This document shows positions 4,762-26,478 of a stretch of 26,478 bases of DNA, piece by piece (the first letter of the stretch is position 1; every line of letters starts with the position of its first letter). Source of the stretch: Chromera velia (taxonomy: Eukaryota > Sar > Chromeraceae); the NCBI GenBank assembly GCA_018398765.1, contig JAHBMJ010000732.1:9253-35730 (forward strand). The letters run 5' to 3'. The position numbers and the translations under genes were made by a program. Under the pieces are notes generated by a model that worked only from the letters and a program-made list of their open reading frames with translations, was not told the DNA's origin and did not search any database.

Positions 4762-6405
4762 TTCTAGAGGGAAAATAGTCCGGCATAGCCTCAGGCAGCT
4801 TTTCCATATATATGCAATCCACGACTACCAGCACCGTGTCTGCAACTTACTGCTCACACTAGCCTCATTCTTATATTGCTTTCATCTCACTGCGTGCTCT
4901 TAATGCCTCTCATTCGTTTGCTTTATCCCACTGCACTCCATTCTCTCCTTCCCGCTTGTGTGTGTTATTGCACGATCCTCGTTATTTGCATGCATCCTGC
5001 AGCTCTCCAACTGCCCAAAATGATACGGTCGTGTTAGCTTACTGCGTTGATATGTTCACTTATGTAGGTCTGTTGCTCGCATTCGATCATGCATTCACTC
5101 AACGTGTATATATCAATCTCTATTCATCTTATCACCGCTTGATCCCAGAATAATCGGTTTCACTACGTGCTTTTGTATGATAATCCACTGCTTTGCCCAT
5201 TTTGTTTCACTGTTCTCATTACACCTTTGTACACCACATCTCTCCCACTATCATCTAAGTTGCCTCTTTGCTAAGCTTTTCACACACACGTCAGCTTTAA
5301 TTAAATCTCAGTGCCCACAGCTGACTCTCTCATCATCTCAACGTCTTCTCTGTTCAGTGCTCTAAATCAGATTTCAATGCAATGCCATGGCCTCTTCCCA
5401 CTGTATTCTCTCTCATGTTTGGTTCTCGCTTTTTTCTGTCCATAGCCATCAACTCATTGCTCTTATACCCCAGCTATCACCCAGCGCAGACAGGTGGGCA
5501 TATAGACAGGCAGGTAGGCAGGCAGGCAGGCAGATATGCCAAACCATAGAATAGGCAGACCCATAAAATGAGAGAATGGCACTGGCAAAATAGCAGAAAG
5601 GCAGAGAGACATGCAAATACGCACTCATAGGCACTGCCAGGCTAGACTGCCAGGCAGGCAAGCAGGCAGGTGGGTAGACAGACAGACAGACACACAGGCT
5701 ACTCTCTCGGTGACCCTGTTTGCTCACATCTCATCTCTTCACTTACATTTCACTTTTCTTATCTTGCCTGTCTCATGCCATTTCTCTCAATTCTGACATC
5801 TTATCTGACCTCTCAGCTGTACATATCTCTACATGCTACCTCACAAACAAACTGTGAGATTCAGAAGTCACAATCCCACTCTGCTTCCGTCTTGATGTTT
5901 CTTTCCGGCATGACTCAGCGTATTCCTGCCTACCTGCCCGTTGGCTGTCATGTAGGGATGCCTTCCTGTGTGTGTGACCGTATTCCTAATTTTGTCTTCT
6001 TTTCTGAGTGTGCTCAAAGTTCTGCCTCCCTGTCTGTTTGACTGCTTTCTCATCATCCCAGCTAGGTACCCATTCTGTCTGCCTGACTTAGTCTACTTCC
6101 CGAATTTTGATCTTTCTGTTAAACTTTGCCTATGTTCACTGAAAAGTTCTGACTGGGCCGCTCTATCCAAGGACTGCCTTTAATAACTTGCTATCCTAAT
6201 AACCTTCCAAATTTCGCTTTTCCGCTCTTCTATCTTTTCTCCTATCACCTCTTTTATCCTTTTTATCTGTTCTGTGTTTCTTCTTTCTTTCTGTCACTGC
6301 TTTTTTCATTCTCTTCCCCTCTTTCGTCTCTCTCTCCAGATGTATACCTCTTATTTTACATGTTTTTTCATAATAGTGCCTGAAAGTTAATTATTTCAGG
6401 ATAAG
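4762..6405. repeat. Pyrimidine-rich spacer with GGCA/GACA microsatellites
   Basis: Mostly C/T-rich plus-strand DNA. Two microsatellite clusters interrupt it: AGGC/GGCA repeats at 5505-5533 and GGCA followed by GACA repeats at 5649-5697. The long open frames here (for example 5670-6041) are Ser/Leu/Phe/Cys-rich products of the bias and lack splice or domain support. No gene is called. Confidence 0.55.
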
Positions 6406-6457
6406 TTTTCTCGACACGATCATACTCGATCGTCAACATCGACCGCCATTTATTGAA
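6406..6457 (+). repeat. Left copy of a diverged direct repeat flanking the retroelement
   Basis: Contains ATCATACT, the 15-mer GATCGTCAACATCGA (6428-6442) and TTTATTGAA (6449-6457), in the same order as the copy at 8071-8125. It lies just upstream of the truncated retrotransposon. Too long and diverged to be an ordinary target-site duplication. Confidence 0.7.
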
Positions 6458-6478
6458 CATCGCTCTTTTATACATAGA

Positions 6479-7894
6479 ATGGGGGAGGGCAGCGTCGAGG
6501 AGCCCGAGAGAGAGCCCGAACCTATCCTCCTTGACAACTGCATCTTAGGCAGTCTAGGGTATGCGGATGATCTCTGTTTCCTTGCTCATTCCGTCTCAGA
6601 TCTGCAAAAGAAGTTCTCAGCCTTGGAAGGGTATTCCAAGGAATGGGGATTGAGTGTGAACTTAAAGAAAACGAAAATCTTGCGTCTGTCTGCCTTGGCT
6701 CTGGGGCAATCTGCAGGTAGAGTCATGTATAGTGGGAGGGAAGTTGAATAGACATCCGAATACAAATATCTGGGGTGTGTTTTCTTTGAAAGGGGGTGCT
6801 TGAACAAGACAATTGAGTCCCGTATTGCTTCTGCTTCGCGGGCTCTGGGAGGGGTAATTAGATTGATTGCAAGCATGGGCCCGCTCAGCATTGACGCGCA
6901 GGTAATAGTCTTTAGAGCTTGCTAGACCCCCGTAGCGCTCTACTACCTTGAATGTCTGCCAGTACAGGATGCAGACCTGCTCGTTCTTGATGCTTTGCAG
7001 CTTCGGTTTACCCGTTGGTGTGGTTATTTATCTGCTTGCAGCCTCCGCCTGCCCTCTCTTTGCATCCTTGGTCTTCTTCCCTGCAAAGCCCTTCTCTGCT
7101 CCCATGTGGCTGACTGATGGCACTCTCTTTCCATCACAACACACACTATTCCTGCAGCCATGTTGCGTACCTGGAAGAATAACTGCTACCAACAATTCAC
7201 AAGATCTATAAACAGGCTGCTTCGTTGGGTTGATTTGATATCTGTCCGCTTGCTGAGGGTCGAGCCCGATCTGTCTTCCCAACGCGGGCAGAATGGTCGT
7301 AGGGCACAAGGCACCGGCTCACTTTTCTTTAAGGGCAAGGTGAGACAGACAGTTGTAAAGGAATGCATGAAGGCTTCTGAGGATCATGGGCAATCTTCCT
7401 CTCACTTTCCCCTCCTTGCTAGACTCACCCCTCTGCAGCGCGACTTCCCGTCCTCCCACCGTATGTTTGTCTTCCTCCTGTGCAGCAAGTCATCCTCCAG
7501 TGTTCCTTCCGTCTCTGTCCTTCCCCGTTCTGCCCTGTCGGTTACGGATGGCTCGATCTTTTCTTTTTTGCACATGCTGACATATAACCCAATGGGCGGG
7601 TAAGGTGGGCTGCCTGTTGGTTGCTCTGATAAAAAGCTGTGCACCTATGAAGCCTGCTACCGGTGTGTAGATGATTTTATTCATCGGCTCTCTGTCTGCC
7701 CCCGATGGACTGCCGAACAAGGCTTTTTGCAGTGGTTGGCATTAATTCAATCAGACTGCTTCACTCGTTGTGACTCACCCTTTGCATCTGCCTCCTTTTC
7801 TGATCTGGGGGTTCACAAGTTCATCACATCGCTCTTACGCTCTCAACCTTCTCTCCTCTTTATGATTTCTCATCATATTATAGTAAATGATTAA
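6479..7894 (+). pseudogene. Non-LTR retrotransposon reverse transcriptase, C-terminal part, with four internal stops
   Basis: One frame of 472 codons encodes the end of a LINE-type ORF2. It has SLGYADDLCFLAHS (the YADD catalytic motif of RVT_1 reverse transcriptases), then EWGLSVNLKKTKIL (the KTK palm/thumb motif), then EYKYLGCVFFERG, then RIASASRALGGVIRLI and PVALYYLECLPVQDADLLVLDAL, the usual post-RT order. Near the end LCTYEACYRCVDDFIHRLSVC gives the C-x(3)-C ... H-x(4)-C cluster found at the C-terminus of many LINEs. Stops interrupt the frame at TAG 6749, TAG 6923, TGA 7115 and TAA 7601, but no frameshift is seen. The N-terminal RT motifs, endonuclease and ORF1 are absent, as expected of 5' truncation. 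The copy is dead; the ATG at 6479 is simply the first in frame. Confidence 0.85.
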
Positions 7895-8125: not shown

Positions 8126-9372
8126 TACAATTATAAAAAGCTTTTATAATTAAGCTGCTTGAGAAAATTTAGGAAAATTTATATCAGATTACAAAACTTT
8201 TTTGACTGACTATTGATTGATCGATGAGTTTCATAGTTGGTACACAAAGCATTTATCAAAAAGTATCCTCTAAAAAAGGTTACAGAATGTGTTTAGCCAT
8301 AAGTCTAACAAATTTTAGAACATTTTATGACATAGCTCTTATTTAATTGACTAGTTGATTGATTGAATGCGTAATTTTTTAAAGTCATAATGATGTTAAA
8401 TGCATTCGGTTTTAAATTAGTGAATATGTAATTGATAGATTTGGATACCAATAGTAGTTCAGCAAAAAATTTAGTAATCAGACCGTAATACTGCATGCTT
8501 ATATTTTTTAACGTTTTCCTTTAGCCCGTACGTCATAATTAACACACTCACAAGAGTCGGGTGATAAGACCTTAATCACTTTGCACGCGCACTCACTTGT
8601 TAATTAAAATTTTATAACGCAAAAAAAAAACTGCAAATTGTGCATGGGCTGCAAATTTTGCAATATATATATATGATGTGTGCGTCTTTCATTGCATAAA
8701 ATTAAGCTTTCGATGCATGGCGACCTTCTGATAATACTTGACGACTCCTGTTATAGTGATAAGAAGATTCCTTGCTGCTTCTGTGGGGTTTCTTGCTCCG
8801 ATTGACGGTGTGCAAACCGCTATCTGTAGAATGTTTGCGTTGCCAATTTCACTGTTGCACGAGTCGTTTATCCTCTCGTCTGATGTCTTGTCGGCGTTTC
8901 AGAAGACGTTGTCACCCTTTTGTCTTGGCCTCCTCCTTAGGAGTGCTCTTTTCGAGTTCTTGGGAAGTGATGGATTTTGGAATTTGCACGTGTTTGTCTC
9001 CTGAGAGATGTGAAATGAGATCTTCAGGGCAAATCGATTAGAATCCTTGATCTCTGTCCCTCACAGCCGAAGAGTCGCCCTTTGGCTGCTTTCTGGGGTC
9101 AGGGTTGAGTGTCTTTTTCGGAAGTTGGGCGGTCTGTGGAAGCCCCCCAATTTTGTCTCTCTCGCTGCGCTTCGTAGTGACTGTGCTGTAGAGAGCCCTG
9201 GCCCGTCTACGCCTCTTCAGAGTTCCTCTGCTGTTCTGAACGTTGTGTCTCTGTGCAACCTGTTGGCAGTGGCTGATGGTACGACTACAGCAGGCAATGT
9301 GAGAACCTTCCGTTGGGCCTTGCAGCGTCTTTGAAGGCCGTCTTTGGGGGCCCTAGCCTGACGCCGCATGAC
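8126..9372. other. AT-rich spacer, then a T/G-skewed stretch without a supported gene
   Basis: 8126-8700 is AT-rich with A/T runs and a short (AT)n at 8663-8673. From 8738 to 9334 one plus-strand frame is open apart from stops near 9002 and 9012. Its product is Leu/Ser/Val-rich with no domain I recognise, while the opposite strand gives Lys/Arg-rich sequence with stops. It could be an old gene relic on either strand. Confidence 0.4.
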
Positions 9373-13475: not shown

Positions 13476-14528
13476 TTGTGAAATATAACTTTTGAAATTT
13501 ATTATAAAAATTTATGGGTATAGATTTTGTAAGGTTTTAAAAAGTGAAAGAAAATAAAAAAACCATCTTGAAGATAAGACTTCTCAGTTCTAATTTCTAA
13601 AGTTATAAAATTAAAAAAGTTTTAAAATTTAAAGTTTGGGGTCGGGCTTTATTATAAAAAAAACAATTCTGAGGTTTTTTTTCAGAAAATGCATGTCCCA
13701 GTATGTACGTGCTCTCTTGTGTGCAGCAGTCTTAATTTAAAGCGCAGTTCAGCAATGAAAACGAATGAAAAAGCCCTGTATAACTTTATGGTGGAAGTGT
13801 TTTTGCACTATCTTGCACATAACATAATATAACGTTGATATCTCTTCCTCAAGATTTCAAAATATAATTCACATATTCACGTTCATTTTTTTTTTTGCGA
13901 CAGCTAGGTTTCAGTGCACTCAAGCACAAAAGTTAAATTAACCGTGATGTTCTTTTTAATTTCTTTCGTGATTTGGTTGCTTTTTCTCTGTTGCCCATTT
14001 CTGGAGGATGGTCGTCTTTTCCTAACCTACCTTCACTTCGTAGAGTGCGTTTGATGCATGCTTTCTCCTGTGTTCCTTCTGTCTCGGCCAAGAAGGGCCT
14101 AATATCCTCTCATCTTATCCGGACACTTCTTTCTTGTAATGCACCTGCGGTTGTCCTGGTTGACGAACTTACTTTTCTGTTTTTGGAGTTGTATATTTTG
14201 AGATGGCCTGTTTCGTTTTTGCTTGATTTGTTCATGTCTGCAGTCCGTCGGACTGGTGATGATGGTCTTCGTTCTCTTTGGAAGGCGCGTTTGTCCTTTC
14301 TTTGTTTTGTTCTAAAATAATCTACATATGACTAATTTTCAATGTTACGGCCTTTTGTTGTCGTTTGCTTCCGCAAGTACACCTGAGAACCGTCAGCGAT
14401 AAACAAAAGACAGCGGTAGGGATACGGAGGGGCGTCGCGCGCAGGACACTACGTGTGTTCTCTAATCATGCCTACGGTCTATCCATCGGCTTGCAAGGAT
14501 CGACGTAATACTGCGATTAATTGGCATG
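13476..14528. other. AT-rich spacer and an unassigned 115-codon frame
   Basis: 13,476-13,960 is AT-rich without features. A plus frame at 13,973-14,320 encodes 115 residues rich in Leu, Ser and Phe with no recognisable domain and no good splice context. The opposite strand gives a Lys/Arg/Ser-rich sequence with one stop. Neither is convincing. Confidence 0.4.
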
Positions 14529-14781
14529 NNNNNNNNNNNNNNNNNNNNNNNNNNNNNNNNNNNNNNNNNNNNNNNNNNNNNNNNNNNNNNNNNNNNNNNN
14601 NNNNNNNNNNNNNNNNNNNNNNNNNNNNNNNNNNNNNNNNNNNNNNNNNNNNNNNNNNNNNNNNNNNNNNNNNNNNNNNNNNNNNNNNNNNNNNNNNNNN
14701 NNNNNNNNNNNNNNNNNNNNNNNNNNNNNNNNNNNNNNNNNNNNNNNNNNNNNNNNNNNNNNNNNNNNNNNNNNNNNNNNN
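14529..14781. other. Assembly gap (253 N)
   Basis: A run of 253 undetermined bases. It is flanked by GGCATG on the left and GCATGT on the right. Frames spanning it are meaningless. Confidence 1.
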
Positions 14782-17101: not shown

Positions 17102-17416
17102 TCACTGACGCACGCACCCCCCCTTCAAATGCCCTAGCTGCCTGACCAGTCGTGTGACTTTTGTGGTTCCCTGGAGGACGTTGCCTGTCTGCTTCTCCAG
17201 AGACAGAAGGGCACTCGTGAGGAGGTCCTCAGACGACAGCTCTGCCGGTCCGCTCCCGTTCTTGCCGCCACCCCCCGTCTCCCCCCCTGAGGGCTCAGAG
17301 GGCCAGGCCACCTCAGGGCCTTCCTCGGAGTCGTAAAACTCCAAACGGCCCGGACGGAGACGTCCCGCCTGCAATTCAGGAAGGCCAAACGACGTTGTCT
17401 GTCGGGATTCGCATGA
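17102..17416 (-). CDS. C-terminal exon and stop
   Basis: 315 bp after CCATGCAG, phase 0, ending TGA at 17,102-17,104. It encodes 104 residues: a Gly-rich linker (GGETGGGGKNGSG) between two segments, RLRPGRLEFYDSEEGPEVAW and ELSSEDLLTSALLSLEKQTG, then TTKVTRLVRQLGHLKGG. The last 40 residues have leucine spacing that could form a short coiled coil, as polycystin tails often do for oligomerisation. A GTGCGTGCGTCAGTGAGC string overlaps the stop and could act as a donor, so a further exon is not excluded. Confidence 0.62.
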   Translation of the reverse strand, partial: SCESRQTTSFGLPELQAGRLRPGRLEFYDSEEGPEVAWPSEPSGGETGGGGKNGSGPAELSSEDLLTSALLSLEKQTGNVLQGTTKVTRLVRQLGHLKGGCVRQ

Positions 17417-17815
17417 CTGCATGGCACCACTAGTGAGTGTATCTTCGCTATCAATGTAATGCATTTCCAAGCGTTATATCAAACGGAAGCGGATGGCTCC
17501 GTCAAGAAGTCTCCCACACCTTCCACCCACAAGAGAGGAAGGTGAGGGGCTGATGGAGGGAAAAGAAGGAGCGATTGATGAGAGACACAGGAGAACACCA
17601 GAGCTTGTCATCTGCTCCGACGCAACAATTTGTGCATTGAGGATCGACTGATGGAAACATGAACAGCCAAACACAAGGGGGAGCATCATCTTTGAAGCAA
17701 AGTCAACCAGAGCACCAAAATCCCTGGCATGATCACCAATAGCAAGTGTCTTTGGACAGGAGTAAATGCTCTGAATTTTCTTCACACTAGCCCAGGCCCC
17801 ATCATGAAAGCATGC

Positions 17816-17851
<36 letters not shown>

Positions 17852-20800
17852 GCCGGACCTGCCAGTCCAGGGGGAAGTAGGCCCTCAATGCTCTGTCTGG
17901 TGCCGCCAGTCTGCTGCTGTCGAAGCACTTGGGCTCTCCGAAAGGCAGGCTGCGGTGGAGGGCGTTGAGCCTCGAGGGACTCATCGCAAATTCTGCATCC
18001 ACAACCTGCAGTGAGTGATCAAATAGATCGGTCGAATCATTGGGTTCTGTCGGATGGCAGCCTGAGATGATGGATGCTTCATGGAGAATGCTTCCAAAAC
18101 AGCTAGGTGGTATGGTGTAAGCACCGCAGGATTGTCCGCCCCCAAGGAGTCTCCCCCCCTGACGAAATGACATCACCGCCGGCTCTTCCCGACGAAATAT
18201 ATCGACGTCTTATCATGCATCAGCAAAGTAAGCTCTCGATTCCATAAATCAGGTAACACAATTGAATGAAATGGACTGTTCATCTTCCTGACCGACCTAC
18301 CTTCGCAACCTTGGACAGGAAGACTGCGTGATCCGCCTGCTCGAACGCGGAGGGCAGAACAGCGACGTATACAGCAGCCACGGCGGAGAGCAGGAGAATG
18401 CAGGCGATGAAGACGAACACCAGCAGAGTGATGTGCACAGAGAGGTCCAAATACCTCCACTCAGGCTCCCAAGCGCCACCTGCATCCAGAAGACTTGGAA
18501 AGAGGTAAGGAATGATAGGTGCATGGATGATTTTCATCTCGCTTTTTCTGTTTTTGTGGGATCCAGTTGCTTGCTTAACTTGGGTTGTGCTCTTCCACCA
18601 CACATCAAGAAAATCCTCCTTTGAAAGAAGTCCACCGCAAAATGAAGGTTGCTAAAAACAAAGAAAGAACCCATGCGACACACCGAACATGCATGCGCAA
18701 AATGTGAGCATGGCCTGCTGATCGGACAAACAAGGTCTTTATCCCCTCAAGGAATGACATGAACCCCCCTCAAAGAACTAGAAAGATCTCAACTGACAGA
18801 GCAAGGCCAGGAGACGGACGGAGGTGTCCCCAAAGTGTTGGAACTCCTCTGAATTTGTGTCCCTCGCAAAGAATGTCACCGTATGGGCGAAGGCCAAAAC
18901 CAAAAGCAGCTGCGTACACTAGCACACATGTCTGAGGTATCATCCAGGGTTTCACAGAAAGAATTTGACGCCATGTCATAACCACACAAAGAGCAACCAA
19001 ACGGATGAACGAACAAGAAACAGAAAAATAAACGAACGAACACGCGAATGAATGAAAGAGAGAGAAAAAAAAAAAGGCGAATGACGAAGAAGACAGAGAC
19101 AAAGGAAGGAAGGTTTGCCGTATAGTCCTGCGCTCTGCACACGCACACGCCTACCGTCCCCCTCCAGCACGCGAACTCCTTCTATCACATGCAGGCCCGT
19201 CTGAACTGACCACCAGCGGGATGAATTGGCTCATTTGAGATGCCAACGCCGCCACAGTCTGTGCAATCCTCCGACCCTGCCTCGAGGCAGTGACCGCATC
19301 CACAGAAGCAAACCAGAGGATCACTCCGGTGATCGCCACTTCGATGACCTCAAAGTTATAAGCCCTCTTTACACCCTCAGTCTCCTCAGTTGCATCTTGG
19401 CCTACATGTCCGTGTGAAAGTTCCACCGCTGCCTTTGCCAGGACCAAAATGACTCCCACAAGGCGCAGGCTGTTAAGAGGCCAACTGAGGTGAAATGGGA
19501 TCCCGAAGGGCAGAGGCAGGCTCCCCGCTTTCCGGGTGGTGAATCCTCCTCTCAGCTGGATCACGCACCGGCAGCCAATGGCAACAAAGAGGACCAAGGC
19601 AGACCCCCACGCTCCGGCACGGCTTGCGAAGGCAATCCAGGGACTACCAGCGCCAACCAACCAGAGGTGGCCAGCAGAGAAGCACAAGGCCTGCAAATCC
19701 AATCGAAAAAAAACGACAAAGGAGATCAAGCATCTTCATTTCACAATTGAGACAGCACGATCGATTACAGAGTGGACTGCTTTCTGTGTGCAAGCCTGTA
19801 AAGAGACGATGACAAAACCTCTCATGAAAGTGTTTGTTTGCTCTTTCTTTCTACCTTTCGACTCCGGAACCCCTTTTCTAGAAGAGCATCAAAGAAAGGG
19901 GTGTGCTTTCTGATTCTACTCTTCCCTAACCGACCATGATTGCTGTCAATGACTGGAGGAGGAGCTCGCTCTTCCATGCGAACATGTTCCATTTCTTCGT
20001 CTGCAGAAAGGGAGAAGAGCACGAATTGCAAGAACCCTATCATTGTTCCGAACGTCAGAGGGGCAGGGGCGGCTTTCCCGACAGGGCAGATTGTCAGACC
20101 ACACACATGAAGAAAGAGGAAAGCAAACAGGCAGAAAAAAAGATGGACAGAAAGACAGACACGCACGTACACTTACATACACACAGAGGGGGGGGGGAGG
20201 GAACAAAGAGAAACAGATACACAGGGGGTAGGCAAGCACACTACCAGGCAGAAAGACAATCAGTCAGACGGAGAGACAAAACGAAAGATCTGTGGGTAGA
20301 GGCACAGGCACTCACACGTAGCGGACTGATGAACAGAGATACAGGGGACGATGATAGAAAGCAGGAAATGCAAGCAAAGAGAAAAGCACATAGAGAGCAT
20401 TCAAAAATGTGATGGACTATTGAGAGAAACACCATCTTTTTGACTGAGCAGAAACACATCACTGACAAGCCAAAAGTGACTGACTGCCTGCCTGACTACC
20501 TGCGTGACTGCCCGACTGACGGTAATAAAGTCCACTACTGGGTGTGCTGCCAGCTCATGATGTCCAGCGAGAGCGATTTGAGGCAGGAGTGTGTCCTTCA
20601 AGGAAGCATGAAGAAGGAGTTCCTCTGCATGCGTCTTTGAGGCCGCCTCTCCAAGGCCCGCCATGACAGCTCCAGACCCGGCAGGCAGTCCCCCCCCCGT
20701 CCTCCTGTCGTCAGTCCGCTCGTTGTTTTCTTGGAGTGGATTGCCCCAGAGTTCCTCTACGAAGAAGAGAAGCTTGCGGCGTCCGTTTGCTGTCTGCATG

Positions 20801-23800
20801 CACTCCGCAAATACTTGAGACTTACATAAGGGAGTGGAAGAGGATCGGCATGCAGTACAACAGAAGAAGGGAAGGGAAGGACGCTAAACAGTACAAGAAG
20901 AAAGTCGAAAGCAAAAAGAAAACTCCCCTTACTAGTCTGTTTGTCTGCTGAATTTGAACGATTACGCAATCCGTCCCAAAATCTTGGTAGGTCAATACTG
21001 TTGTTGTTTTGCTCTGCGCTTCTCTCTGTCCACCTTCTGTCTGCCTGTCTTCCTGTCTACGTACCTACCTGTGCGCTTACCAGACCGCTCGTCCTTCTGT
21101 TTCGCTCTCTTGTGTTGTCCGTCTGCACATATCTAACTTACGTGACTAAGGAGGGGAAAACAGAATATATTCCATGCATTGTCGCATTTTCAACTCCTAT
21201 CTGACGCACTGCGGGCGGACTGACCACTGTGGAAGCCCAGTAGTGTCCGTCCAGCATCGCCCAGAGGACGGCGGAAGACATCCTGATCAGTTTGGGAATC
21301 AGCAGGACGTTGTGAGAGTTCCACAGAGCGTCCCTGCCAAAGTAGAGACGGGATCTGTTCGTTCGAAGAGTCAGAATGTCCGTCACCTGCAGACATAAAT
21401 ACGGTTTTGTCAGCATTTGTCAGCTTTGTTCGGGTACCCATTTGGATGAAGAACCAAACGTCATCGTATGGAGATTTAAGATGTCCACAACGAACAATCC
21501 AGAAACAAAGAGTCGTAGAGAGAAAGCATTCCTCATTTGTCAGATCACGGTCGGTCTTGAAAACACTCTATCCATGTGTCCCTCTCATATTGAAGAATCG
21601 AGGCCACTGGTCAGGACTCACAAAAAACGCTATAATGCATTTCCGGCTGGGGAAAACAATGCCATCCTGACATTTACAGGACGCTTGTAAGTGAACGCAG
21701 GGCAAGACACTTACTTTTGTGGAAGGACACCGCGGTGGGTACGAAAGAGCTCAAAACAATGATAGAGCAGAGACGAACACGGATCAAAAATCAACTGACG
21801 AGCAGCTTTGCGAGATCAGGATCCCCGCTGTCGAGCATCCTGCAGAGGACGAAATAGATCGAGCAAAAGAAGAGGAAGTGGAGGGGCGATCGAAAGAGAA
21901 ACAAAGGATACATGCCGACACACCAAAGAATTGCAAACACCTGGAACAGAAACAGGAGAGGATCGGGATAAGGGGTGCATAAAATCGTTCTGCGCTTCGC
22001 ATGAAAAAGTGTAGGGAACACACAAAAAAAGAGCTATCAAATGTGCATCGTTTTTGCCGTTCAACTGACAACGGAACTCTTCGACTCTCTCTCTCTCTCT
22101 CTCGTTCAATCACCGCACAGATTTACATGGAGGCGATTGCACCTCTCTGGCCTACTGACCAAAAGATTGCAGATCTCTTCTCTCCCTTGATGGTCACCTC
22201 ACAGGCAGCAGAAGCCCTCTCCCCCCTTGGAATGTCCTTCAGAGCCTGCCGGAGGTCCCTGTGGCTCCTCACCAACAGGGCCCGAATCAACGGGTTCCCT
22301 GCCGCAGCGATCACCTCACTCAGGCCCTGTGCGGCCTGCAGGAAGGAAGGAAGGAAGGAAAGAAGGAAGGAAGGAAGGAAGGAAGGAAGGTGTCTTGTCC
22401 ATATGCATGCATGTGCTTTCATTTCCTTTCAGGAATTAAGACTCTACACAAGCATGCAATCAGAGTGGTGTGCATGCATCTCGGAGCCTTGATGTGCCTT
22501 TTGGATGTTTTGATTGTTTTTTGCTCCGAAATGAATAAGTTTTTCAATCCAGAACAACCCACTTTCACTCCTGTATACATCTTGTCTCTCCCCCTTTTGG
22601 CTCTTATTTCGTTCCGCTGTTCTCCGGGTGCGCTTTCCTGATGCAGTTTTGGCTAAATGTTTCTGGCCGGCTGGAATGCTGGCTGATCGACCCACTTACT
22701 GGCTGACCAGGCTCCAGTATTTGGTCCATGCGAGTTTGAAGGGAAGGGTCCATCTGTGCTTCCCGCAGAGTCTCTGGAGCGTGGAGAGAAGGACGGTCCC
22801 TGCAACGATCGTATGTTAAGTATTGAAGAAGCATGTACTTCTTGACTTGAACAGCTGATGCTGAGAGAGTGTCGGAAAAAAGACGAACAAGGGAAGAAAG
22901 AGGAGGGTACATTAATTACAGACGCGCATCGTACGAATCATGACGGCTGAAGTAGAGAAAAAAGCCTAAATTAAAATCAGAAAACAGTCGACCCATCAAA
23001 TAAGAATTGACAGACGGATCGACATGAATCGCGGCCTGCCTACCCTCGCCGCGTGACTGCCTGATTGAGGACCTTGCAATCTCACTGACTGACCGAACAT
23101 CGGCAGATCTACCGGAGTCACTCCGAACGCCACGCTGCACATAATTATACATTGGGAAAGTGCTTGAGAATTGCTTCTTGAACAATGACCACTCTCTGTG
23201 TTAATCAGTGTCGCGGTTGCTGCCTGTTTCAGGATACCTTCGACGCAGGACATGCTGAGGATCTCGGGGCTCTCAATCAATGGCCTTTGTGAACCTGCGT
23301 CCATTCCTTTGTAGGCAGTCCCATTCCTCCTTCCCGCTACTCCGCCGTCCTTACTCCCTTTCGCATGTGTATGCAGCAAAGCTACGGGAAACAAATGAAA
23401 ACAGCAAGAAACCTTCGACTCACTGACTGCCTGACTGACTGTTCGAGGGCGAGGTCGGGGTCATCTGCCCAGAGCTGCAGGGGATTGTCCCAGTAGGCGA
23501 GGATCCTGTGGATCTGGTTAAAGAACACCCTACAGACAGGCAGGCAGGCGTGCATACATGGACAAACAGTAGATGCGTTTGACGCACACACAAAAGCACT
23601 GGAAAGGAAAAAGGCATCGAGGGTATGCAGGTTTCACGAAAGCTGGGGACCACCTAGTAACAGCAGTTGATCTAATTTTGTGCTGAGTCAGGCGATGGCA
23701 TGTGCGTCTTTCGCAAGACCAGGCAGGATTTGACGTTGAACATGCACTTTGTCTTCAAAATGTAAACTCACGTTTGATAGCACTTATCGGACTTGACCCA

Positions 23801-25783
23801 GATCGCCTTCTGGCTGGGCGCCCTCTCGAGGAGAAACTGCATGAAGCTCTTCATGATTGTGTCTCTCACTGAGCGGGAGGTTTTGGGTCCCTTCTTCAGG
23901 CGCTCTGCGACTCTGCGTCTCCTGAGGGTAATGTCCTCGTCACTCTCTGCTGCATCTGAGGGCAGAGACTCCAGGGAGGAGGAAGCTCTCTTGACGAAAC
24001 TCCGACCCACAAAGGTTTTGCTGAGGAAACCCATCCATCCTTTTCTGTTTTTGGGAGCAGAGACGCTCTCTGCTTCCTGCTGTCCCTCCGATTCCTCTTC
24101 TGTTTCTTCTTTCTTGACCTGGACCGTTGCTTTCGGTGTGAAGTCCTCGGCTTTTTCTCCCTTTTCGTCCGCTTTGGGGCTCCCTGGGGACTCTTCTGAA
24201 GAGTCGGGGGAGCTTTGTCTTTCTTGCAGACGCACAACGCTCCCCCTTCGACCTGCTGTGCTGTTTCCCTGACCTATCAGACTGCTCCGTCGTCCTGTCA
24301 GGCTGTTTTTCCTACCCGGTAGCTCCTTCTTCTCCTGCTCTTTTTCGTTTTCCTTCGCATTCTCTTTTTTTTCTTTGTCCAACTCTTCGTCTAGGTATCC
24401 GTAGATCCCTTCCCCCTCTTCCGCTTCCTCCCCGTCAGAGTTTGCTTTCGCAATGCACTCCTCCACCGTTTTCCAAGAGTCAATAAAAATTCTCCCGTCG
24501 CTGCAGGTGAAATGCAACACCACAAGAAACAAACATAGAGAGTCAGATGGATGTACAGTTGGATTCTCTTTTGTGCAGAGTGCATGGGAGTGCTGTTTGG
24601 ACCAATTTGCAGAAGGAAAATCAGACATGACATTGCGCTGTTCTGCACGTGTGTTTCGAAATTTTGACTCACTGTCATCATGCGTCTGTTCTTCCGATTC
24701 TCAAAGGACTTTCACCATCTCACCTCTCAAATGCGTGAAGAATGTTACCGAGGATTCCCCTGTACACAGGGAGTCACAACAATAAAAACAAACAAAGGCT
24801 GATGGAGGTTTTTCCAGGCAAGGAAGGAAGGAAGCGACCGACTGACTCCTCTGTCCATCGCCCATCGTTCTCATCGACAGCCAGCTGCCACAGCCACCCC
24901 CATGCGTCCTCATGAGTCTGGTCCCACCGACGACCCACGATCTCCTGCATACACGCGACAACCGAAGCCTTGAACTGAGCTCTTGCAGCGAAGGCAGCTT
25001 GAAAGAGTTCCGCCTCCCTCCCTTCCCCTCCTCTTCTTCACATTCTTCCTCACTCATTGAGTGAGTTTCTCAGTCATCGATTCACTCATCCCCTCGTGTG
25101 CTCATTACCGTAACCATTTACACACGCACTCATTCCCGCGCTCACTGACAAACCTCCCAACAATCAGACATACCAGACACTGGCGACCAGCGCAGTGCAT
25201 ATCCAAAGCGTGAGAAAGCAACAAGGCAGGGAGGGAGGAAGTGAGGGAGGGACGGAGGGAGGGAGAAAACGTACCTGAAGTGTCTGCATCACGACTGGAG
25301 TCACCTGCAGACATAAATCCAGCACGAACACAGGACCTCACTCAAATCGCGTCTGATGAATTTGACCGCCAAACGGAAAGGGTTCCTAGGCCTGGAAAAC
25401 GGATGTTGGTGTTGGGATTGCGCAATCGGGAAAATGTGAACTGCTCTGCGGCCTTTATCGTATCCGTTCAAAACGGGACATGGATTTGATGTCGAAGGCG
25501 GTTGGTCAGCACAGATATGGATATGGTCTGATAATGGAAGGAGAGTTCTTTTCAGATGGGTCTGCACGTCTCTCCCTTTCATTGCGGCAATTCTTGTGAG
25601 GTCAAAATACTCGATGTACGCATTGAAAGAGGATGATATGATTCGAGTCTGCTGAGATGCCACAGAGGTTGCATGGTGTCTGGCTGCCCGATCATCCCGT
25701 CTCTGGGAAAGGGGATGACGCACGCACCTGGTCAAACTTGGGTATGGCCTGGTAATCCTCAAAGACCTCAGGCCAGGGGATGC
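17102..25783 (-). CDS. Polycystin-type (TRPP) cation channel with two N-terminal globin-like modules, 5' end not found
   Basis: Seventeen exons can be joined on the minus strand into about 1,060 codons ending at TGA 17,102-17,104. Proposed exons: 25,728-25,783; 25,275-25,304; 24,847-24,944; 23,772-24,500; 23,424-23,529; about 23,238-23,294; 22,700-22,799; 22,198-22,335; 21,800-21,940; 21,225-21,386; 20,521-20,793; 19,935-20,000; 19,211-19,690; about 18,794-18,931; 18,301-18,479; 17,859-18,005; 17,102-17,416. What is seen: two globin G/H-helix signatures, a charged linker, a hydrophobic S1 candidate, then S3, an S4-S5 linker, S5, pore and S6 in polycystin order. TRPP channels pass Ca2+ and other cations across plasma, ciliary or ER membranes; here globins could act as a cytosolic sensor (inference). 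The first globin lacks its N-terminal helices, so more exons lie upstream, perhaps beyond the window. A few junctions are phase-ambiguous. Confidence 0.7.
17819..17849. repeat. (GA)n microsatellite in the last intron
   Basis: About fifteen GA units on the plus strand, i.e. a pure CT tract on the coding strand. It begins 9 bases after the 5' splice site of the post-S6 exon. Confidence 0.97.
17859..18005 (-). CDS. Post-S6 cytosolic exon
   Basis: 147 bp, phase 0, acceptor CACTGCAG, donor CAG|GTCCGG. Forty-nine residues, VVDAEFAMSPSRLNALHRSL and later RALRAYFPLDWQ, hydrophilic and cytosolic by position. A GA/CT microsatellite starts 9 bases past the donor on the coding strand. Confidence 0.68.
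18301..18479 (-). CDS. Channel exon: S6 pore-lining helix
   Basis: After GATGCAG (or a slightly later AG) the frame gives WEPEWRYLDLSVHITL, LVFVFIACILLLSAVAAVYV and AVLPSAFEQADHAVFLSKVAK, ending at AAG|GTAGGT. A long hydrophobic helix with LLLSA/N-like small residues followed by an acidic turn fits S6. The acceptor at GATGCAG implies phase 1, which no strong donor of the previous exon supplies. Either an AG a few codons later is used, or a small exon is missing between 18,480 and 18,790. Confidence 0.68.
18794..18931 (-). CDS. Channel exon: S5 and pore region
   Basis: After CCTCAG the exon opens in phase 0 with TCVLVYAAAFGFGLRPYGDI, which joins the preceding MSQFIPLV into a continuous S5. 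HKFRGVPTLWGHLRPSPGLAL follows at the place of the pore helix and filter (pattern F-x-S/T...FRxxxGD in TRPP channels). The usual acidic residue after the filter Gly is absent: the sequence reads SPGLA. The 3' limit is uncertain. A GTCAGT donor would end the exon at 18,798 in phase 2, and GTTGAG at 18,794 in phase 0. Confidence 0.68.
19211..20000 (-). CDS. Channel exons: S2, S3, S4 and S4-S5 linker
   Basis: A 66-bp exon (19,935-20,000, acceptor TTTCTGCAG, donor GTCGGT) gives KKWNMFAWKSELLLQSLTAI. The 480-bp exon (19,211-19,690, donor GTCAGT) carries hydrophobic stretches around GHLWLVGAG and GSALVLFVAIGCRCVIQL, then WPLNSLRLVGVILVLAKAAV in the place of the S3 W-x-LLD motif. It ends with ITGVILWFASVDAVTASRQG and RRIAQTVAALASQMSQFIPL. 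That segment matches the PKD2 S4 to S4-S5 pattern (FxWxKxxxYxxxxxxxxxLxxTxxxxxxxxxxF). S4 has few positive charges, as in polycystins, so strong voltage sensing is unlikely. All junctions are phase 0. Confidence 0.75.
20521..21386 (-). CDS. Two exons between S1 and S2, position of the polycystin luminal (TOP) domain
   Basis: Exon 21,225-21,386 (162 bp) encodes VTDILTLRTNRSRLYFGRDA and later LLIPKLIRMSSAVLWAMLDG. Exon 20,521-20,793 (273 bp, acceptor GCATGCAG) encodes GRRKLLFFVEELWGNPLQEN, a Gly/Asp-rich turn, and AHPVVDFIT. Both are phase 0 and both use GTCAGT donors. In TRPP channels a large luminal domain sits between S1 and S2. These 145 residues occupy that place, but I cannot see the family's conserved residues, so the domain call is positional. 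The first exon also contains an amphipathic basic helix that could be intracellular. Confidence 0.6.
21800..21940 (-). CDS. Channel exon: first transmembrane region (S1 candidate)
   Basis: 141 bp, phase 0 at both ends, after a strong pyrimidine tract ending TTCCAG; donor GTCAGT. Forty-seven residues, VFAILWCVGMYPLFLF then PLHFLFFCSIYFVLC, are hydrophobic with only one internal Arg, enough for one long or two short membrane helices. DSGDPDLAKLL follows. By order it would supply S1 of the polycystin fold. Confidence 0.68.
22085..22103. repeat. (CT)n microsatellite, intronic
   Basis: About nine CT units on the plus strand (GA on the coding strand) within the intron before the S1 exon. It is the one intronic dinucleotide tract here with the opposite orientation. 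Confidence 0.95.
22198..22335 (-). CDS. Helical linker exon between globin 2 and the membrane region
   Basis: 138 bp, phase 0, after a CTGCAG acceptor whose pyrimidine tract is a TTCC microsatellite; donor GAG|GTGACC. It encodes 46 residues, including GLSEVIAAAGNPLIRALLV and DLRQALKDIPRGERASA, likely helical and cytosolic. The frame is open further and an alternative donor (TCA|GTAGGC) would add about 12 residues. Joining in phase 0 requires the weaker GTCAGC donor on the preceding exon; the stronger GTAAGT donor would need a different acceptor here. Confidence 0.55.
22341..22390. repeat. (GGAA)n microsatellite forming a 3' splice-site pyrimidine tract
   Basis: Twelve or so GGAA units with one GAAA interruption. 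On the coding strand this is TTCC repeated up to the CTGCAG acceptor of the helical-linker exon, so the repeat itself serves as the polypyrimidine tract. Confidence 0.95.
22700..23529 (-). CDS. Exons for globin-like module 2 (E to H helices)
   Basis: Exon 23,424-23,529 (acceptor CTGTAG) completes the previous codon and gives VFFNQIHRILAYWDNPLQL and ADDPDLALEQ, an E-helix-like stretch. The short exon near 23,238-23,294 gives ESPEILSMSCVEG, matching the PE-x(n) start of helix G, with donor GTATCC in phase 1. Exon 22,700-22,799 (acceptor TTGCAG, donor GTAAGT or GTCAGC) gives TVLLSTLQRLCGKHRW, then TLPFKLAWTKYW, a clear globin G/H match: LLxTLxxLxGxxWTxxxxxAW. The 3' limit of the first exon and the 5' limit of the second are ambiguous because overlapping GTCAGT/GTGAGT donors and three AG acceptors fit in different phases. 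No F8 His appears in any of these joins. Confidence 0.62.
23772..24500 (-). CDS. Large linker exon: charged, Ser-rich, leading into globin module 2
   Basis: 729 bp after CCTGCAG, entered in phase 2 (GA+C gives Asp) and leaving in phase 2 at donor GTGAGT. It encodes 243 residues: RIFIDSWKTVEECIAKA, then a Glu/Lys-rich stretch, then four tandem 7-residue repeats (24,233-24,316) of pattern G-(R/Q)-x-x-S: GRKNSLT, GRRSSLI, GQGNSTA, GRRGSVV. Ser/Pro/Glu/Lys-rich disorder follows, and the end, SVRDTIMKSFMQFLLERAPSQ..IW, resembles helices A-C of a globin. Two or three repeats fit the RRxS/RxxS consensus of basophilic kinases (PKA/PKG family), suggesting phosphoregulation (inference). Confidence 0.75.
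24847..25783 (-). CDS. Exons for globin-like module 1 (F to H helices)
   Basis: Three exons: 56 bp (25,728-25,783, after GCATGCAG, donor GTGCGT), 30 bp (25,275-25,304, after CTGCAG, donor GTACGT) and 98 bp (24,847-24,944, after ATGCAG, donor GTCAGT). They give IPWPEVFEDYQAIPKFDQ, VTPVVMQTLQ and EIVGRRWDQTHEDAWGWLWQ. The run xTLQEIVGxxW-x(6)-EDAW matches the G/H region of flavohemoglobin- and protoglobin-like single-domain globins (ETLxExLGxxW...EEAW), and AIPKF matches the GVxPE stretch before helix G. Counting back from that Pro, the proximal F8 His position holds Phe, so heme binding is doubtful. Helices A-E are not identified in the window. Introns are phase 0. Confidence 0.65.
25229..25265. 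repeat. GGGA-type purine repeat, intronic
   Basis: GGGA/GGAA units on the plus strand, CCCT on the coding strand, beginning about 10 bases after the 5' splice site of the 30-bp globin exon. Confidence 0.85.
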
Positions 25784-25860: not shown

Positions 25861-25920
25861 GAAGGCGTCATTGTCGGGAAAGACGAAACCTCCTGAGTTC
25901 CCCGGGCTTTCTCAGCCGTC

Positions 25921-26175
25921 CCTTTCCCCAACGCCGAAAAGCACTGCATGTGCAGAGAGGCACCGCTTTCCCCTTTCCCCAACGCCGAAAAGCACTGCAT
26001 GTGCAGAGAGGCACCGCTTTCCCCTTTCCCCAACGCTGAAAAGCACTGCATGTGCAGAGAGGCACCGCTTTCCCCTTTCCCCAACGCCGAAAAGCACTGC
26101 ATGTGCAGAGAGGCACCGCTTTCCCCTTTCCCCAACGCCGAAAAGCACTGCATGTGCAGAGAGGCACCGCTTTCC
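25921..26175. repeat. 51-bp minisatellite, five exact-length copies
   Basis: Five units at 25,921, 25,972, 26,023, 26,074 and 26,125. They are identical except for C to T at 26,037 in copy 3. The period is a multiple of three and the unit has no stop in any frame, so all six frames stay open across the array. It lies upstream of the first recognised exon, in a likely intron. A coding role (17-residue repeats) cannot be excluded, but no splice signals favour it. Confidence 0.97.
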
Positions 26176-26478
26176 CCTCAAACAAAACGGCAAGAGAGAA
26201 AACAGAAGAGAGATCTCCACAAGTGTAGAAAGGAAAGACGGGCAGCTGTGCGAAGAGGCGCTCACTGACTCACCCAGACTATTGACCACTCCCTGCACGA
26301 AGAAGAGCACACACGCAGCGCAGAAAATGGAAAAACAGAGAACTAGATGAGAGGAGTGTCATCCAAACGGCCTGTAGATGCTGTGCAATGGAGTGGAAAC
26401 ATCCGTGGAACACTCTACGATCCATGCCTGGAGACGCTCGGAGAAGAAATTCCCCATGCAGACACACACGCCCCCCCC
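26176..26478. other. Window end, probably intron or upstream part of the channel gene
   Basis: A minus frame (26,279-26,467) contains RRVFHGCFHSIAQHLQAVW and another frame contains NFFSERLQAWIVE. Either could be an upstream globin helix, but neither has a clear acceptor/donor pair. The missing helices A-E of the first globin must lie in this stretch or beyond the window. Confidence 0.35.

Follow-up and report, generated by a model that had tools for sequence, protein, structure and literature searches.

A predicted family of globin-TRP channel fusions in Chromera velia, with possible gating by heme ligands

Many globins are known that are coupled to an enzyme or a chemoreceptor, and the bacterial and archaeal globin-coupled sensors (GCSs), such as HemAT and the globin-coupled diguanylate cyclases, join an N-terminal globin to a signalling output. 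The nematode protein GLB-33 has a single globin, and the N-terminal ankyrin domain of TRPV channels has six repeats. Among metazoan globin chimeras a 2026 paper (PMC13331133) gives GLB-33, a globin-coupled transmembrane receptor, as the exception besides androglobin, and it likewise fuses a globin to a eukaryotic membrane receptor. Here we describe a gene of Chromera velia that is predicted to encode tandem globin modules followed by a TRP-type channel. It lies in a stretch of 26,478 nucleotides (hereafter the window; assembly GCA_018398765.1, contig JAHBMJ010000732.1, or C731, positions 9253-35730), the right edge of which is the end of the contig. Its product differs from GLB-33 in being a channel rather than a receptor of unknown function, and from the GCSs in having an ion channel as its output and a globin of other than protoglobin type. 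Both parts belong to known families, whereas the combination and the output are new; no globin-TRP or globin-channel fusion was found among the matches listed in a search of open-licence PubMed Central literature, with subscription papers and automatic annotations outside that search. Whether the family forms a new functional class depends on how the channel is gated.

The exons were spliced by hand on the minus strand, and the model was corrected with a splice-aware protein-to-DNA aligner that was self-tested on the window and run on the paralogous contigs. The final model runs from 26414 to 17102, with 19 exons, 18 GT-AG introns and 1,036 residues free of stops up to the stop codon at 17102, and it bears out the original prediction, made from the letters of the window, of a single spliced frame on this strand. 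Exon 26414-26369 is probably not coding, because the paralogs place a different E-helix exon (in contig C2153, LAKDVVALIEYLMNTVNSKARLR) before GVVNTLG; without it the gene extends from 26292 to 17102 and the frame has 1,021 residues. The upstream limit first proposed, 25783, was too short, as exon 26292-26274 also belongs to the gene, the 5' end of which is lost at the contig end. From N to C terminus the predicted product consists of a globin module (G1), a charged linker, a second globin (G2), an ankyrin-like stretch and a six-helix channel. All 18 junctions agree in phase and in position (within one residue) with one or more of the 13 paralog models, three of them being common to just one paralog; this comparison is not fully independent, because the paralog models came from a window-based profile.

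Searches of the genome (177.8 Mb, 4,040 contigs; C-numbers denote contigs that hold paralogs) yielded 60 matches to the second half of the protein, that is, the end of G2, the ankyrin-like stretch and the channel, and 52 to the globin half. Both halves matched on 20 contigs, the window's included, with the globin upstream and on the same strand in every case and with both halves at E ≤0.01 on 13 of them. The second-half matches extended past S1 on ten (C731, C2153, C1217, C2621, C2033, C2176, C2536, C1929, C3646 and C3489), splice models carried C3948 and C289 to about S3 and C132 into S1-S2, and the window, C2153 and C1217 gave models that are complete between G1 and the C-terminus. On C2621 a single open frame (373 residues) starts at the A helix of G2, takes in the ankyrin-like stretch and the pre-S1 motif KKKWEMF, and reaches hydrophobic sequence at the position of S1; beyond it lie 2,500 N, S2-S6 could not be modelled, and a weak S6 match on the same strand (E 0.48) follows downstream. 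The sequence profiles, the predicted folds, this bridging exon and the order kept on 20 contigs support a fusion, and globin and channel are almost certainly encoded by one gene.

As read from its sequences, the family is expanded, with about 20 paralogs in this genome, and is under conservation and purifying selection. Between the window and C2153 changes at synonymous sites are almost saturated, and the ratio of nonsynonymous to synonymous differences per site (pN/pS), taken from this single pair in a protein-guided alignment, was 0.22 for G1, 0.29 for G2, 0.24 for the ankyrin-like stretch, 0.49 for the channel and 0.41 for the C-terminus, a result that also speaks for one fused gene. The C-terminal YDSEEGPEVAWPSE motif returns, altered, in C2153, C1217, C189 and C2621. 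C189 has the channel, with second-half matches only; it gave no globin-half match, and no credible globin could be modelled within 91,501-97,000. C2259 had one weak second-half match only, and C2669 globin matches only. Among viral contigs, 15 pattern matches were seen, none of which was upheld by tblastn.

The original prediction had called the channel a polycystin (TRPP); its globin-TRP fusion is supported, but the polycystin identity is not. A single-sequence PDB search with the channel gave no matches, and profiles were built from four and seven sequences, with doubtful stretches trimmed by hand. The four-sequence profile found YVC1 at 3.6e-4 and TRPV1 at 0.23, where unrelated flavivirus envelope proteins at about 0.3 mark the noise. 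With seven sequences the matches, which extend from the S4-S5 linker as far as the TRP helix, were led by TRPV1 (1.5e-5), YVC1 (4.2e-5) and TRPV2 (4.6e-5), followed by TRPV3, Inactive, OSM-9 and TRPV5/6; the best 60 of 92 matches (E ≤0.048) were TRP channels only, of the TRPV kind except YVC1, and included no polycystin or PKD chain. Pfam scans of the four and seven channel members (E ≤10 for the seven), a check proposed along with the polycystin assignment, did not list PKD_channel, but Ion_trans was unlisted too. The AlphaFold2 model of the window's S1-S4 exon was helical (predicted local distance difference test, pLDDT, 76.6). Foldseek with this model gave a best E of 0.55 and nothing significant, with TRP-superfamily channels in 37 of the best 50 rows; after VIA re-alignment of the Foldseek candidates the best 50 rows were all TRP channels, TRPV2 (9.1) and PKD2 (8.9) being tied. 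Polycystins share with this family the six helices of the TRP superfamily and comparable S1-S4 fold scores, but they carry a TOP domain, for which there is no room here because the S1-S2 loop of the window model has about 6-10 residues. Taken together, these comparisons indicate that the channel is very probably TRP-type and, judged by its profile, is not polycystin-like, the closest solved channels among the matches listed being TRPV1, YVC1 and TRPV2.

With TRPV1, TRPV2, Nanchung-Inactive, OSM-9 and yeast YVC1 (TRPY1) the family shares, besides the six helices and the profile match from the S4-S5 linker to the TRP helix, a KW-type pre-S1 helix, a short S1-S2 loop and ankyrin-like sequence ahead of S1. 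It differs from them in having N-terminal globins in place of a full ankyrin domain and a CGAWEPEW-like filter region, and sequence identity is low. The ankyrin-like stretch, which goes beyond the original prediction, is conserved between globin and channel and holds at least one repeat, one clear rather than six; Ank_2 matched three of ten members (best 0.0016), and the window member itself had no match. On C2153 the ankyrin-like exon was matched three times in tandem (6395-6616, 7350-7571 and 8183-8404), possibly as alternative exons or an assembly duplication.

Both globin G/H signatures were found where they had been predicted, TLQEIVGRRW..EDAW, divided after TLQ, across exons 25304-25275 and 24944-24847, and TVLLSTLQRLCGKHRW..LAW in 22799-22708. 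When the proposed Pfam Globin hidden Markov model was run, G2 of the window scored 22.0 bits, equal to the 22-bit cut-off; nine of 13 G2 members matched at E ≤1 (best 3.1e-8), and a profile of 13 of the 16 G2 sequences (C132, C3460 and C2203 were left out) matched PDB globins at 1.2e-10. Protoglobin was not among the four Pfam families listed for the 13 members, which argues against a protoglobin-type (GCS) sensor globin. G2 has the 3/3 alpha-helical globin fold and, on these comparisons, is a true 3/3 globin. Flavohemoglobins and single-domain bacterial globins are among its nearest relatives of known structure; with Hell's Gate globin I (3s1i) and Vitreoscilla hemoglobin it shares the 3/3 fold, the spacing of the F8 His, an aromatic CD1 residue, a C-helix Pro and the G/H Trp. 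It differs from these bacterial globins in sitting in a tandem array within a membrane channel, and in the alignment 3s1i has Gln where G2 has the E7 Tyr.

The heme-pocket residues of G2 are well kept. In standard globin numbering, His at F8, an aromatic residue at CD1 and Tyr at E7 were all present in 16 of 16 splice models, from the window and 15 paralogs. After a rerun with the pocket columns neutralised, the 15 paralogs retained the F8 His in 15, the CD1 aromatic in 15 and the E7 Tyr in 14. The residue at B10 is Phe in ten of the 16 and Met in the window, and in none is it Tyr. The codon of the F8 His is split by a phase-2 intron (CA/C), and the same intron occurs in C2153, C1217 and C132. 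With this His as the predicted ligand, G2 probably binds heme.

The choice left by the original prediction, between heme-binding and heme-less globins, falls differently for the two modules of the window, as G2 has the pocket residues and G1 lacks the F8 His. In ten of ten aligned copies of G1 there was no His at the F8 position, as placed by alignment to G2; in two copies, those of C1217 and C3646, a His lies three residues past it. The G and H helices of G1 are globin-like, and a profile of the ten copies matched leghemoglobin at 5e-4. A third module (G0), which the original prediction had not described, was found upstream of G1 in paralogs. Its F-H helices matched Pfam Globin in C2153 (1.5e-7), C2621 (2.5e-6) and C132 (3.1e-4, just below the cut-off), and a genome search placed it on nine contigs (C2153, C132, C2176, C2033, C3489, C1946, C1217, C2621 and C3646); on C3489 a single open frame holds the F-H helices of G0 and the A helix of G1. 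Position F8 is His in all four copies read (C2153, C2621, C132 and C3489), and G0 in the paralogs is also predicted to bind heme through it. The G0 region of the window gene would fall past the contig end, and the genome search with a G0/G1 query found its upstream continuation on no other contig. This query also matched C3641 (121120-121401, minus strand; 3.5e-6) in a region with two internal stops, possibly a decayed copy, on a contig unmatched by the second-half and globin-half searches.

We consider the protein best read as a fused sensor-channel, in which tandem cytosolic heme-globin modules and an ankyrin-like linker are joined to a six-helix, TRP(V)-like cation channel, and we give this reading a modest degree of confidence. 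The chances that such a channel is gated by a heme ligand or by heme redox state appear evenly balanced, and the control by O2, NO, CO, redox state or lipid put forward in the original prediction is a hypothesis. A ligand (O2, NO, CO or H2S) or oxidation at the heme of G2 or G0 would shift the globin, this shift would reach the TRP helix by way of the ankyrin-like stretch and the pre-S1 helix, and the pore of a tetrameric channel would open or close as a result, with G1 as a conserved, heme-less coupling or packing module. We infer the heme sensing, the relay and the tetramer from established globin and TRP biology. The G1-G2 linker carries RKNS, RRSS and RRGS in succession (24240-24318, minus strand), and because these resemble basophilic-kinase sites, phosphorylation of the linker may also tune the channel.

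Several points count against a fused sensor-channel. Its exons were joined from DNA sequence only, its introns, hundreds of bases long, permit many choices of exon, the first splice model was wrong at four exons, and on ten of the 20 contigs, those outside the list that passes S1, the second-half matches end at or before S1; a globin gene and an adjacent channel gene could have been misjoined by exon guessing or by the assembly. This account is nevertheless strongly disfavoured and very improbable, since one open frame on C2621 spans G2 to pre-S1, order and strand are identical on all 20 contigs, intron positions and phases are shared with paralogs, and full models reach the C-terminus in three members. 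A polycystin is hardly credible in view of the TRPV and YVC1 profile matches, with no PKD chain in the best 60 of 92, and of the short S1-S2 loop, and the ankyrin-like sequence upstream of the channel also speaks against it.

Some observations also pull away from heme-based gating. G1 is conserved despite its missing F8 His, and TRP channels often respond to other stimuli, as would be expected if the globins were a heme-less or structural fold, serving as a partner tether or in tetramer packing, while heat, stretch, lipid, calcium or phosphorylation of the RxxS linker gated the channel; we regard this as unlikely, though far from negligible, as the pocket residues retained in every G2 model are hard to explain without a heme pocket and the F8 His of G0 is retained as well. 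The kinship of G2 with flavohemoglobins and single-domain bacterial globins would also suit an enzymatic or scavenging role (NO dioxygenase or peroxidase-like), in which the globins shield the channel or its surroundings and play no part in gating. That explanation is improbable: no reductase domain was found in the window protein by Pfam or inspection, and another gene of this genome (L010, 1252-2616, plus strand; single exon, globin 1.1e-13) looks like a flavohemoglobin equipped with a reductase of its own, the reductase-like C-terminus being recognised by inspection only.

Predicted features of the globin-channel gene in the window (SEQ tokens stand for sequence motifs)
Feature	Positions	Strand	Evidence
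Doubtful first exon (VFHGCFHSIAQHLQA)	26369..26414	minus	splice model and paralog comparison
Globin G1, F to H helices	24847..26292: exons 26292-26274, 25783-25728, 25304-25275, 24944-24847	minus	splice model, alignment
End of G1, K/E- and RxxS-rich linker, A-C helices of G2 (SFMQFLLERAPSQKAIW; CD1 Trp)	23772..24500, one exon	minus	splice model
Globin G2, E and F helices	23094..23529: exons 23529-23440, 23134-23094	minus	splice model, paralogs
Globin G2, G and H helices (TVLLSTLQRLCGKHRW..LAW)	22708..22799	minus	splice model, Pfam
End of G2 H helix and ankyrin-like stretch (GEKRSAIFWMLDSGDPDLAKLL)	21225..22335: exons 22335-22160, 21839-21800, 21386-21225	minus	splice model, Pfam
Linker and pre-S1 helix (AAHPVVDFITTKKWNMF) to first half of S1	19935..20793: exons 20793-20521, 20000-19935	minus	splice model, profile
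End of S1, S2, S3, S4, S4-S5 linker	19211..19690, one exon	minus	hydropathy, AlphaFold2 model, structural matches
S5 and pore helix	18798..18918	minus	splice model, profiles
Selectivity-filter region (CGAWEPEW), S6, TRP-helix-like segment	18301..18479	minus	splice model, profiles
Cytosolic C-terminus with YDSEEGPEVAWPSE motif	17102..18005: exons 18005-17859, 17368-17102 (stop)	minus	splice models

The first, 20-exon hand model was dropped when paralogs showed errors at four exons. A GC donor after 24889 was rejected, as paralogs show the exon running on to 24847; an extra exon at 24759-24724 (GILGNILHAFER) and a premature exon end at 22198 were corrected from paralogs; and the hydrophobic stretch 21940-21840 was rejected as coding, as paralogs show an intron preceding the ankyrin-like exon. 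The queries for the window Pfam scan and for both genome-half searches still included mistakes of this kind or the doubtful exon 26414-26369; the paralog splice models were rebuilt afterwards with the corrected window protein, and two alignments in which MAFFT had misplaced exon fragments were excluded. An intron of the gene contains a 51-bp tandem repeat in five near-identical copies (25920-26178; 99% matches). Elsewhere in the window, a reverse transcriptase fragment with a YADD motif (6377-6748, plus strand; Pfam RVT_1 1.4e-6, 28.6 bits, below the 29.6 cut-off) is probably a retrotransposon remnant, a long GGAA repeat, very strongly skewed towards purines, occupies 1-486, and a run of N, read as X in translations, lies at about 14527-14781. 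In the same genome, PKD_channel matched an open frame of 757 residues at L006 (604-2877, minus strand), which by inspection looks like a multi-repeat voltage-gated-type cation channel unrelated to the globin-channel family.

Under the fused sensor-channel reading, these genes could encode ion channels that heme globins gate directly, the first such family, in which tandem globins with an unusual Tyr-E7 pocket would sense O2, NO, CO, sulfide or redox state through some 20 genes of one photosynthetic alveolate; we advance this tentatively, rating it somewhat below an even chance. A family this large lends itself to testing the question: modules with and without the F8 His adjoin in the same proteins and offer a natural comparison. 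If gating by heme ligands holds true, the family would constitute a new class of channel, gated by gas or redox state, and a possible template for genetically encoded gas-controlled channels, and it would link oxygen or NO directly to the entry of calcium or sodium in an organism that is probably related to the apicomplexans.
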